From positions 5,084,001-5,148,000 of the forward strand of contig CP094668.1 of assembly GCA_022836915.1 (NCBI GenBank): DNA of 64,000 nucleotides, given 5' to 3'. A program made the position numbers and the translations under genes. Below, piece by piece: positions 20,361-55,203 of this stretch (positions within the stretch are counted from its first letter, which is position 1; each line of letters begins with the position of its first letter). The notes below the pieces were generated by a model, which made no database searches, had not been told where the DNA came from, and saw nothing but the letters and a program-made list of their open reading frames with translations. Source of the stretch: Paenibacillus sp. OVF10 (GTDB lineage: Bacteria > Bacillota > Bacilli > Paenibacillales > Paenibacillaceae).

Positions 20361-20415
20361 AAAAAGCTTCTGTCTCACCGCTGGGAACAAGATCCCTTCG
20401 GCGAGCAGAAGCTTT
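20361..20415 (-). terminator. Intrinsic terminator of leuCD
   Basis: AAAGCTTCTG pairs with CAGAAGCTTT, with an inner CTCGCCG/CGGTGAG extension on the minus strand; TTTTTG follows. It lies 30 bp downstream of leuD. Confidence 0.88.
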
Positions 20416-51736: not shown

Positions 51737-52119
51737 TTACATAATTGTTGCGTGGACTTCCTGTTTCATCGTTTGTACAGGTTTATTCTGTCCATCTACA
51801 AATACAACGGTTGGTTTGTGAGTATTTGCCTCTTCTTGCGACATCATGGCGTAAGAAATGATAATGACGTTATCTCCAGGCTGCACCAGACGTGCAGCTG
51901 CGCCGTTAAGACATATGACCCGCTTCCGCGTGGTCCTGGAATCACATAAGTTTCTAGACGTGCACCATTGTTGTTGTTCACAATTTGCACTTTTTCGTTT
52001 TCCATCAAGTCGGATGTTTCCATCAAGTCTTCATCTATGGTAATGCTACCCACATAGTTCAAGTTGGCTTCCGTTACCGTAGCCCGGTGAATTTTGGATT
52101 TCATCAGTGTTCTAAACAT
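51737..52119 (-). CDS. panD: Aspartate 1-decarboxylase (one frameshift)
   Basis: 127 aa after one base is restored near 51915 ([19 protein letters not shown]). Makes beta-alanine for pantothenate. The self-cleaving Gly-Ser is visible in [13 protein letters not shown] (residues 24-25), giving the pyruvoyl cofactor; also [16 protein letters not shown]. The start overlaps the panC stop by 8 bp. Confidence 0.93.
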
Positions 52120-53007
52120 GGGACAGTACCTCCGATTTTTGCAGCCTTATATTGTCAATCAATCTTGTTTTTCCGAATTTCACCGCAAGTGCGATGAGCA
52201 GATCATCACGTCCTTGAACTTCCTCCTGATCTGCGAGTGGCTCCAGACTTGGAAAAGCCTGAATCTCGGCGTAGTCGATAACGGCAAGCGGTGAGCTTGC
52301 AATCTGCTCGCGCAGAATACGACGGATATCTGCGGCGTTTGTAGCTGCACCTGTATCTGCGGCATCCTGAGCTGCACGCAGTGCCTTCGACAGAACTAAC
52401 GCCTGTGTACGCTGTTCAGCGCTAAGATAGACATTACGTGAACTGAGGGCAAGACCATCCTCTTCGCGAACAATCGGACAAGGTACAATCTCTACAGGCA
52501 TATTCAAATCATTCACCATCTGTTGAATGACCGCAACCTGCTGAGCGTCTTTCATTCCAAAAATGCACGCTGCGGCTGTACGATGTTGAAGAGCTTGGAG
52601 ACTACAGTTGTTACTCCGTCAAAATGTCCTGGACGTGAAGCGCCACATAAGCGCTCCGTCAGTTTTGAGACAGATACCGTCGTTTGCGTTGCCTGTGGAT
52701 ACATCTCTTCAACAGAGGGAATAAATACGATATCCACTCCTTGTGAGCGTGCTGTTTCCACATCTCTGGCTTCATCCCGCGGATAACTGTCAAAATCTTC
52801 ATTAGGGCCAAATTGAATCGGATTAACGAATATGCTTAATACCACGATATCGCTCTGTTGTCTGGCTGCCTGCATCAAGCTTGCATGACCTTGATGCAGA
52901 TAACCCATTGTCGGTACCAGACCTACAACGGACGCACTGGACCGAATCGCTTGACGCTTCAAGCTTAGTTCCTGTCTTAACTCTGCGATTGTCCGTAATA
53001 CTTTCAT
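52112..53007 (-). CDS. panC: Pantothenate synthetase (one frameshift)
   Basis: 298 aa after one base is restored in the A run at 52559-52563 ([18 protein letters not shown]). Condenses pantoate and beta-alanine with ATP. HIGH-like [29 protein letters not shown], and [12 protein letters not shown]. Overlaps panB by 4 bp and panD by 8 bp. Confidence 0.95.
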
Positions 53008-53882
53008 GAGTTACTCCCCACCTTTTCCTTGCGTTGTCCGCCGTACAGTTGATCCAGAACACCATCCGCAGCATTAAATACATGCTCTTCGGCCGGGAAC
53101 GAACGATCTTTAACTTCTTTCACGTAAGCTTCGATGCTCGTTCTGATTAATGTACCCACATCTCCATAGGTTTTGACAAATCGTTTGGGCGTATACGGAG
53201 AGGCGTATTGAACCGCATCGTGGAATACCAGTACCTGACCATCACAGCCTCGACCTGCTCCAATTCCAATGGTAGGGATGGACAGTTCCTCCGAGATCGC
53301 CCGTGCAACTTCTTCCGTAACCAGTTCAAGCACGATACCAAACGCACCAGCAGCTTCCAGGGCTTTGGCTTCGTCCATTAAACGTTTCGCATCCGCTGCA
53401 TCCTTGCCCTGAATGCGGTAACCACCAATCTGATTAACCGATTGAGGTGTCAGTCCGATATGCCCAAGAACAGGTACGCCTGCTTGCACGACTGCTCTAA
53501 CGGTGTCCGCAATCTCGACTCCGCCTTCCATTTTAACCGCATGGGCATGCCCCTCTTGCATCAGTCGACGTACACCCTTAAGCGTCTCATCCACGCTGCC
53601 ATGATAGGTCATAAAAGGCATATCAGCCACAATAAACGTCTTCTCAGCACCGCGCACTACGGAACGTGTGTGGTACACCATGTCGTCGATGGTCACCGGA
53701 AGCGTCGAGTTATAACCCAGTACTACATTGCCGAGTGAATCACCAACCAGGATCAGATCGATACCTGCTTCCTCTGCGAGGAGCGCTGTTGGATAATCGT
53801 AAGCCGTGATCATACTAAGCGGCACGCCATCCTGCTTATATTTTTTCATTTTCACAATATTCAACGCTTGTTTGTTCGCCAT
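53004..53882 (-). CDS. panB: Ketopantoate hydroxymethyltransferase
   Basis: An intact 292-aa TIM-barrel enzyme using methylene-THF to make ketopantoate. Motifs MITAYDYPTALLAEEAGIDLILVGDSLGN, VKMEGG and GHIGLTPQSVNQIGGY. First gene of panBCD. Its long upstream leader carries tandem hairpins and a terminator. Confidence 0.96.
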   Translation of the reverse strand: MANKQALNIVKMKKYKQDGVPLSMITAYDYPTALLAEEAGIDLILVGDSLGNVVLGYNSTLPVTIDDMVYHTRSVVRGAEKTFIVADMPFMTYHGSVDETLKGVRRLMQEGHAHAVKMEGGVEIADTVRAVVQAGVPVLGHIGLTPQSVNQIGGYRIQGKDAADAKRLMDEAKALEAAGAFGIVLELVTEEVARAISEELSIPTIGIGAGRGCDGQVLVFHDAVQYASPYTPKRFVKTYGDVGTLIRTSIEAYVKEVKDRSFPAEEHVFNAADGVLDQLYGGQRKEKVGSNS

Positions 53883-53921
53883 TTTCTCTCATGGCTCCTT
53901 TCTTCTTTTCAAATAAACGCA

Positions 53922-53955
53922 ACAAAAAAACCTTTAGTTTTCCACTAAAAAGTCC
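53922..53955 (-). terminator. Possible attenuator terminator in the panB leader
   Basis: TTTAGT-(GGAAA)-ACTAAA stem extended by flanking T/A pairs, followed by GGTTTTTTT on the minus strand, 40-70 nt before panB. It is 270 nt downstream of birA, so more likely a leader attenuator than the birA terminator. Confidence 0.55.
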
Positions 53956-54017
53956 CGAAAAGTCAAAAAAGAGTCACTTGCGATCGTCCCTTCTGTCTCG
54001 GTCCTCTTCGGCTCAGA

Positions 54018-54130
54018 GCAGAATCCAACAACTCACTTAAACGTATTTCATTCTTGCACTGTGGTCTGCTTATATAAAACACATCAAAGCAGAACAAAGG
54101 TTACTGTTACGAGAGTGCAATTCGGTCTGC
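54018..54130 (-). ncRNA. Tandem hairpin RNA element in the panBCD leader
   Basis: Two consecutive elements (54089-54130 and 54018-54069) each start GCAGACC and end TTCTGC on the minus strand, so GCAGA/TCTGC pairs close each one, and both carry a TTGCA/GTGCA segment near the 5' side. This tandem arrangement before panB fits the published 'pan' RNA motif, which also occurs in tandem upstream of pantothenate genes. I could not compare with the consensus. Confidence 0.5.
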
Positions 54131-54156
54131 ATTAGCCGATATCGCCTCACGAACAC

Positions 54157-54165
54157 AGTATACCA
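54157..54165 (-). promoter_or_regulatory. Extended -10 promoter candidate for panBCD
   Basis: TGG-TATACT on the minus strand is an extended -10. The -35 (GTGAAG) is poor. Transcription from here gives a leader of about 270 nt. Confidence 0.45.
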
Positions 54166-54225
54166 AAGTTCTGCTCAAACTTCACGTCTTATGTTCATTT
54201 TACCAGTGAAAATTCGACAAATTGT

Positions 54226-55203
54226 TTATGATTTCCAAGAAATCTCACCAGAGATGATTAGTGTATGTTCTCCATCGTGCTTCTCCACGATAAGTGCTCC
54301 AGAAGGGTCAAGACCAATTGCCTTCCCTTCAATGACACCATGAGGATTCGTCACTGTAATCTCTCGATTCATCGATACGGACAGTGCCTCCCATAGAGCT
54401 GAGATCACACCAAATCCTTCTTTTTGATACAAAAAATACAACTGTTCAAGCTCCGTCAGAATGGCAGCCGTTAGTTTGGTACGATCAACGGATTGACCCG
54501 TCTCCATCTTGAGCGAAGTAGCGATTGTGGTCAGATCTTCCGGATAATCCTCGGGATCAAAATTCACGTCAACGCCTATACCTGCAATACAATATCTGAC
54601 TTCATGATCTTCCACCGTGGATTCAAGCAATATGCCGCATACCTTGCGCCCATCAATCAATAAATCATTTGGCCATTTGATGCCTGCATCAGCTCCTGAA
54701 CAAGCTCGAACGGCACGACATACAGCCACTCCTGTTAATAAAGTTAACTGCGGCGTATGCTGAAGTGGTAGATCAGGGCGTAACAGGACACTCATCCAGA
54801 TTCCTTTACCCGGAGGAGAGAACCACTGTCGACCGAAACGTCCTCTTCCTCCTGTTTGTTCTTCCGCAATGACCACAGCACCTTCTGCCTGCCCTTGCTC
54901 AGCTAGCTTGAGAACATCCCCTTGCGTAGACAGGGTCGAAGTCAACAAAACAGCCTTACGGCCAAAAACGGTTGTATCCAGAGCCAATTGGAGGCCAGTA
55001 GCGTCAATGCTATCCGGCTTCGTTACCAGACGGTATCCTTTGCGGGATACAGCTTCAAACTCATAACCCATGTCTCGTAACTTGTTCACATGTTTCCACA
55101 CAGCGGTCCGACTGATGGACAGATTACGGCTGATCTCTTCACCTGATACGAATCGTCCTTCTGCATTTAATAACATATGTAACAGATCTTCATGTTTGGT
55201 CAT
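54226..55203 (-). CDS. birA: Bifunctional biotin--protein ligase / repressor
   Basis: 325 aa, intact. Winged HTH (residues 1-65, VSGEEISRNLSISRTAVWKHVNKL), ligase domain with the biotin loop GGRGRFGRQWFSPPGKGIW, IKWPNDLLIDGRKVCGIL, and C-terminal SH3-like domain. Attaches biotin to carboxylases and probably represses biotin genes. Its start overlaps cca by 14 bp. Confidence 0.95.
   Translation of the reverse strand: MTKHEDLLHMLLNAEGRFVSGEEISRNLSISRTAVWKHVNKLRDMGYEFEAVSRKGYRLVTKPDSIDATGLQLALDTTVFGRKAVLLTSTLSTQGDVLKLAEQGQAEGAVVIAEEQTGGRGRFGRQWFSPPGKGIWMSVLLRPDLPLQHTPQLTLLTGVAVCRAVRACSGADAGIKWPNDLLIDGRKVCGILLESTVEDHEVRYCIAGIGVDVNFDPEDYPEDLTTIATSLKMETGQSVDRTKLTAAILTELEQLYFLYQKEGFGVISALWEALSVSMNREITVTNPHGVIEGKAIGLDPSGALIVEKHDGEHTLIISGEISWKS

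Follow-up and report, generated by a model that had tools for sequence, protein, structure and literature searches.

The leader between birA and panB on the minus strand of a 64-kb stretch of the Paenibacillus sp. OVF10 chromosome, referred to here as the window, raises two questions: whether it belongs to the pan RNA family, and how it might control the pantothenate genes that follow it. Analysis of the window confirmed that, as the original prediction had described, panB is preceded by a leader that measures about 270 nt and contains tandem hairpins as well as a terminator-like stem; it lies on the minus strand, with the panB start at 53882. On that strand birA (54226-55203) is followed by the leader and then by panB (53004-53882), panC (52112-53007) and panD (51844-52119), and Pfam agrees on each gene. 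The panB gene codes for ketopantoate hydroxymethyltransferase (PF02548, E 1.8e-110) and is preceded by a likely ribosome binding site, AAAGGAG, at 53895-53901, while panC matches PF02569 in two pieces (positions 1-140 and 144-267) split over two reading frames and the match of panD, coding for aspartate decarboxylase, to PF02261 ends at position 71 of 115.

Among named matches to PanB the best were 99% identical, with P. xylanexedens DSM 21292 ranking first, and the segment 53883-54300, which comprises the leader and the end of birA, showed 97.6% identity to P. xylanexedens over 419 columns. Relative to this species panC has a 1-nt gap near 52563, and the 3' arm of the terminator has, at 53935, one A fewer than in DSM 21292. 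The CoaX gene of the window's own genome is also split over two frames. The presence of panC in two frames, the panD match covering only 1-71 of 115 positions and the completeness of 89.42% given in the table entry of the window's own assembly suggested indel errors; as far as sequence can tell, the panC gap, the truncated panD match, the CoaX split and the missing terminator A are probably homopolymer errors of the assembly.

Relationship to the pan motif

The pan family and its place before panBCD are already known. In the passages of Weinberg et al. 2010 that describe it (PMC2864571), the pan motif consists of tandem hairpins with two conserved bulged A's each, located before panB, panC or panD, and is spread over Firmicutes including B. 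subtilis. According to a passage of the RNA-seq study of P. riograndensis SBR5 (PMC5670726), RF01749 lies in the >100-nt 5' UTR of panB-panC-panD and is listed among riboswitches; our leader is like that one in genus name and operon. An Oenococcus paper retrieved for RF01749 proved to be a false match to 'orf01749' and was discarded.

No match was obtained anywhere in the 64-kb window at Rfam gathering scores. The covariance search with the pan RNA model that had been proposed for this locus, run at permissive settings, gave a match of RF01749 to 53989-54083 with 26.6 bits, under the gathering score of 36.2 bits, which is the threshold of a short-linker tandem model and not a structural feature; the low score is probably due to the long linker between the hairpins. 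The match before panB was the sole one at E <= 10 in the 7.24-Mb genome, and the plasmid collection gave no match. All of the 75 genus genomes searched had panB as well as an RF01749 match at E <= 10, which exceeded the gathering score in 18 of them. The pattern GGACNGAGACANAAG occurs once in the genome, and GACAGAAGG is carried by 75 of the 79 genus leaders (window included), the other four being second-copy loci with a variant.

Single-hairpin models trained without the genus located both hairpins at exactly the predicted places in the window, where E-values are rough: model R1 gave 54148-54113 with 31.5 bits (E 2.1e-5; runner-up 11.6 bits) and model R2 gave 54023-53989 with 49.7 bits (E 3.2e-12). 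The Rfam placement of hairpin 1 from 54083 was rejected in favour of that of R1, as it contains non-standard pairs. A minus-strand terminator at 20366-20410, downstream of a gene that we take from its translation to be leuD, has an outer stem like that of hairpin 2 and scored 18.5 bits with R2 (E 0.0046); it was rejected as a pan hairpin, being an ordinary terminator whose resemblance is confined to the outer stem.

Hairpin 1 (54113-54148, minus strand), recognised by comparison and by R1, reads GAG GCGAU A UCG - loop - CGA AUUGC A CUC, with one bulged A per strand, 5 bp apart. Hairpin 2 (53993-54021, minus strand), identified by R2 and by the RF01749 match, reads CUG CUCUG A GCC - GAAGA - GGA CCGAG A CAG, with one bulged A per strand, five bp apart, and two mispairs; it is lengthened by UU:AA to 53991-54023 and was found in all 79 genus leaders. 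The features of the pan motif given in the passages on it in PMC2864571 were thus present, namely two bulged A's interrupting each hairpin, the tandem arrangement (54148-54113 and 54021-53993) and the position upstream of a pan gene, panB, whose start at 53882 is supported by Pfam. The leader differs from the family in scoring below the Rfam gathering threshold and in its long variable linker (54024-54112, minus strand): the hairpin cores lie 91 nt apart here, and across 186 leaders this distance ranges from 20 to 131 nt, with a median of 52.

Both hairpins were found to covary in relatives, the opposite of the lack of covariation that would have refuted the original prediction. Among the sequences outside the genus, of which 56 of 99 distinct for hairpin 1 and 57 of 101 distinct for hairpin 2 were aligned for the models, cells with both sides changed numbered 117 for hairpin 1 (28.7 in shuffled alignments) and 34 for hairpin 2 (10.0), a level attained by 0 of 500 shuffles in each case, and double changes were found at 9 of 11 and 7 of 11 pairs, respectively. 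Gapless counts over all leaders were 219 against 62.6 shuffled for hairpin 1 (109 distinct rows) and 30 against 9.3 for hairpin 2 (33 distinct rows). The percentage of paired cells is inflated for hairpin 1, since its rows had been chosen by a structure rule that allowed no more than one mispair and a length of up to 34 nt. The collection comprised 199 leaders, 79 from the genus (78 fetched and the window) and 120 from a wider search; 197 were kept, L119 having been missed by the hairpin-2 finder and L189 set aside, and the rule for hairpin 1 failed to detect it in 11 of the 197. Two panB-fragment loci from the genus panB search, left out as leaders, are the loci L010 and L011 discussed below.

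The position of the Rfam match, the held-out models on both hairpins and the covariation of both support the claimed pan-motif leader, and, judged from sequence, the leader is a divergent member of RF01749 with a predicted promoter, tandem bulged-A hairpins and a predicted terminator.

The view of GCAGACC...TTCTGC as two similar units was mistaken. Copies of GCAGACC are located at 54130-54124, within the variable loop of hairpin 1, and at 54069-54063 in the linker, while TTCTGC is located at 54094-54089, also in the linker, and at 54023-54018 in the 5' arm of hairpin 2; these locations, together with a linker that lacks conservation between species, rule them out as the tandem elements. A long minimum-energy stem with GCAGAAC near 54174 was likewise discarded, as it draws on sequence 5' of the predicted transcript. 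An inverted repeat flanks hairpin 1, with GCAGAAC at 54174-54168, just 5' of the -10 element, and GTTCTGC at 54095-54089 in the linker; by eye it is kept in close relatives and absent from others, and is either chance or a DNA site.

Predicted promoter, terminator and antiterminator

An extended -10-like promoter element, TTTGGTATACT, was recognised at 54157-54167 (minus strand) from the sequence and from relatives, its -10-like box TATACT lying at 54162-54157 upstream of hairpin 1, and the predicted transcript starts just before that hairpin. Among 136 distinct upstream stretches, 118 had a TATAAT-like box (at least 5 of 6 positions) within 26 nt upstream of hairpin 1, where 28.2 were expected by shuffling, at a median distance of 8 nt; since the box lies so close in most stretches, the RNA is expected to begin almost at hairpin 1. 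A two-hexamer promoter scan found nothing at the leader, so that the promoter call rests on the extended -10 element. The segment 53883-54225, of which about 75 nt precede the predicted transcript, folds better than shuffled sequences (z -3.67; 0 of 100 as good).

Downstream of hairpin 2, comparison with relatives revealed an intrinsic terminator stem, CUUUUUAGU..ACUAAAGG, at 53931-53952, followed by a U-tract at 53924-53930 (both minus strand). A simple terminator scan of the window did not return this stem, its one site being another, on the plus strand. The predicted energy of the terminator was -5.1 kcal/mol in the window as against -9.8 kcal/mol in L047, a weakness that should not be over-interpreted given the probable assembly errors. 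By a strict rule that had no shuffled control, an intrinsic terminator was present downstream in 176 of the 197 leaders; 14 of the 21 others are genus leaders, with an interrupted T-run where inspected. The pairs of hairpin 2 and the terminator taken together covary in Paenibacillaceae (23 double-changed cells, 3.2 shuffled).

The end of hairpin 2 carries a tail, AGAAGG (53989-53994, minus strand), which is a candidate switching strand by its complementarity to the terminator start. Across leaders the tail is mostly AGAAGG or AGAGGG, and the terminator 5' strand in most cases opens with a complementary CCUUUU, CUUUUU or CCUUCU. In 125 of 176 leaders, where shuffling predicts 18.3, and in 69 of 114 distinct pairs (15.0 expected), all six tail positions were perfectly complementary, G-U allowed, to a 6-mer at the terminator start; the perfect complement was missing from the remaining 51 leaders. 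The conserved terminator and the complementarity between hairpin 2 and terminator give computational support to the attenuator that had been proposed for this locus.

The predicted antiterminator (53947-54009, minus strand) is the minimum free energy structure of the nascent RNA and shows weak covariation. In it GAAGAG, CCGAGA and CAGAAGGGA, from hairpin 2 and its tail, pair with CUUUUU, UUUCGG and CUCUUUUUUG. In the fold of the window GAAGAG of hairpin 2 pairs with CUUUUU of the terminator 5' strand and the tail pairs with CUCUUUUUUG just upstream of that strand; the tail being thus occupied, the window would engage the terminator strand by the arm of hairpin 2 and not by the tail. The energy of the nascent RNA was -21.9 kcal/mol for this minimum, as against -11.3 kcal/mol with hairpin 2 forced.

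For 119 distinct leaders whose gap did not exceed 80 nt, the nascent RNA was folded from hairpin 2 to the terminator 5' strand. At least 4 nt of that strand were predicted to pair with the 3' region of hairpin 2 in 83 of these leaders, as against 36.9 in dinucleotide shuffles, with a mean of 5.13 nt paired as against 2.25 (sd of the shuffled means 0.24). The excess was found at the rank of genus (9 of 12 leaders, 4.0 expected), order (28 of 43, 13.0 expected) and class (46 of 64, 19.9 expected). Duplexes within a species were stronger than swapped ones over 127 distinct pairs (mean -14.36 against -13.15, sd 0.20, 0 of 2000 swaps), shuffles and swaps leaving the phylogeny in. Single duplexes reached p <= 0.05 against composition-preserving shuffles in just 37 of 176 leaders, and the nascent fold was below the mean of its own shuffles in only 76 of 119. 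In 66 of the 119 leaders, downstream pairing involved less than 4 nt of the 3' arm of hairpin 2, so that there only the base of the hairpin would be in competition.

In 40 Paenibacillaceae sequences the full antiterminator covaried weakly: 10 cells had both sides changed against 3.8 shuffled (1 of 500 shuffles as high), while slid controls gave 11, 10 and 18 such cells and the covariation score was attained by 39 of 500 shuffles. In the same sequences 84.4% of the antiterminator cells were paired, as against 47.6-66.6% in the slid versions.

The free nascent fold was at least 1 kcal/mol below the fold with hairpin 2 forced in 129 of 170 leaders, and only 50 of the 170 had the combination of hairpin 2 with the terminator within 1 kcal/mol of the minimum, from which it follows that termination would require a factor or kinetics.

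Sense of the switch and competing readings

On these comparisons and folds, the leader is probably a pan-motif transcription attenuator of panBCD in which hairpin 2 serves as anti-antiterminator and binding turns the operon off. Transcription would start just before hairpin 1. In the unbound leader the arm and tail that make up the 3' side of hairpin 2 would pair with sequence entering the terminator 5' strand, forming the antiterminator and allowing read-through, while a factor bound to the tandem bulged-A hairpins would keep hairpin 2 closed, so that the switching strand is occupied, the terminator forms and panBCD is off. We infer the sense of the switch (bound meaning off), a dimeric protein rather than a metabolite as the factor, and pantothenate or CoA sufficiency as the signal. 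The antiterminator strand would consist of the hairpin-2 3' arm and the conserved tail, which is unpaired in the Rfam model, and this makes the switch falsifiable: the attenuator model predicts which mutations turn the operon on or off, and it would account for hairpin 2 varying less in sequence than hairpin 1.

The closest parallel in logic is the B. subtilis pyr operon, where, in the passages on it in PMC7430163, a bulged hairpin stabilised by a PyrR dimer is the anti-antiterminator, its 3' strand is the antiterminator strand and an intrinsic terminator follows. The leader would, in the proposed model, likewise oppose an anti-antiterminator of 5' arm with 3' arm to an antiterminator of the 3' side with downstream sequence, followed by a terminator, with no sequence relation claimed; unlike pyr, it has two hairpins in tandem, and its binding protein and signal are only candidates. 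The antiterminator/terminator platform is proposed here and is not mentioned for the pan motif in the passages of PMC2864571 that deal with it. Searches of the open-access (PMC) literature found no proven ligand, protein or mechanism of the pan motif and no pan antiterminator, expression platform or binding partner, subscription journals being mostly outside their scope, and a term search of a 2024 paper on B. subtilis CoA synthesis (PMC11487621) found no passage on the leader in the text it covered. The proposed switch renders the 16-year-old puzzle of the pan motif testable.

A direct metabolite riboswitch, whose two hairpins would jointly bind pantothenate, pantoate or CoA and act through the same antiterminator/terminator platform with no protein, is conceivable but rather unlikely. 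Each element is a hairpin about 30 nt long, conserved in a pair of bulged A's that are separated by 5 bp, and a linker of 20-131 nt is contrary to one shared pocket, even though the pantothenate-synthesis context would suit such a ligand (the first gene of the 120 loci outside the genus is panB in 117, panC in 1 and another in 2). Binding by a protein is at least as good a fit to small bulged hairpins as direct ligand binding, and a dimeric protein-binding motif was suggested by Weinberg et al., in the passages of PMC2864571 on the motif; the list of the 2022 review, in the portion concerned (PMC9971707), does not include a CoA riboswitch, which leaves room for one.

The opposite sense, in which a factor stabilising hairpin 2 would permit expression and the terminator would form by default, we consider improbable. 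The predicted antiterminator uses up the hairpin-2 3' arm in the window and in most of the genus leaders inspected, which argues against it, although hairpin 2 and a short helix of tail and terminator are predicted together in some leaders (e.g. L122, L139 and L222). In L119, moreover, keeping hairpin 2 closed would hide the likely ribosome binding site and so turn expression off.

Leader-peptide attenuation, or a plain birA terminator with the hairpins incidental, is extremely improbable: birA and panB are indeed separated by an intrinsic terminator, and 18 of 79 genus leaders contain a short ORF together with a possible ribosome binding site, but the terminator lies downstream of a conserved promoter-like box and of hairpins that covary, and the leader peptide was rejected because the 12 genus leaders whose peptides were inspected have no peptide in common, the shared stretches all being translations, in two frames, of the invariant sequence of hairpin 2.

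With binding as the off state, the same switch may act on translation in some lineages. By eye, the tail of hairpin 2 in L119 itself resembles the panB ribosome binding site, and that of L207, GGAGGGA, is opposed by UCCCUCC, which adjoins this site; no terminator was found in either. The sequences of these two leaders point to translational control via the same switch, off when hairpin 2 is held, and suggest that some lineages couple it to the ribosome binding site.

CoaX and variant loci

A candidate for the dimeric factor is CoaX (type III pantothenate kinase), a dimeric kinase that is not known to be inhibited by CoA and is related to the Baf protein. That a CoaX dimer would bind the tandem bulged-A hairpins and close the pan operon when pathway metabolites are plentiful is a highly doubtful reading, modelled on PyrR, a moonlighting phosphoribosyltransferase acting on the pyr operon. 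If a protein such as CoaX were the sensor, the leader would represent RNA-based feedback of a new kind on the supply of coenzyme A.

All 128 pan-bearing genomes tested have CoaX (PF03309), as do 15 of the 32 panB genomes without pan, the latter meaning no Rfam match before panB. The 128 consist of 40 of 40 and 80 of 80 taken from 221 pan-positive genomes (101 left out), together with 8 reclassified genomes: among 40 panB genomes scored as pan-negative, these 8, which include the loci L235 and L238 described below, proved to carry a weak pan match immediately upstream of panB, and CoaX is present in all 8. Before the 80 genomes were added, and with phylogeny ignored, the Fisher p was 5.6e-9 (CoaX present/absent 48/0 against 15/17). 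The 17 CoaX-negative genomes fall in few clades (f19/f52, f16/f58, G419 and G566), and CoaX-positive members of f16, f58 and f51 are also without pan, which implies few independent losses. The association of CoaX and pan can be explained by phylogeny, whole clades being without both, and the case for CoaX as sensor was reduced to association only.

Two arginines, at positions 31 and 169 of the L360 protein, were present in 22 of 22 CoaX proteins of pan-bearing genomes as against 7 and 6 of 15 others; they are two of the five alignment columns that pass the between-group cut, and CoaX of pan-negative genomes is more divergent overall by family E-values. In three genomes (L380, L381 and L382) an ordinary CoaX is accompanied by a second CoaX-like gene that is more divergent.

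Several loci depart from the single leader before panB. In several genus genomes an additional pan leader lies before a second copy of panB, with a panE-like gene after that copy (L007, L010, L011, L008, L014 and L017); in the first three of these the panB frame lacks an internal stretch and keeps both ends. In L003 and L004 the panE-like gene directly follows the pan leader with no panB between, the identity of the panE-like genes at all these loci being presumed from sequence. Another reading frame, whose product we take from its sequence to be a Rossmann-type protein, follows the pan leader in place of a pan gene in L185 and L186. Genome G363 has two separate pan leaders, L213 and L214, one before panC and one before panB, and in L235 and L238 hairpin 1 alone is recognisable before panB, followed by a terminator-like hairpin.
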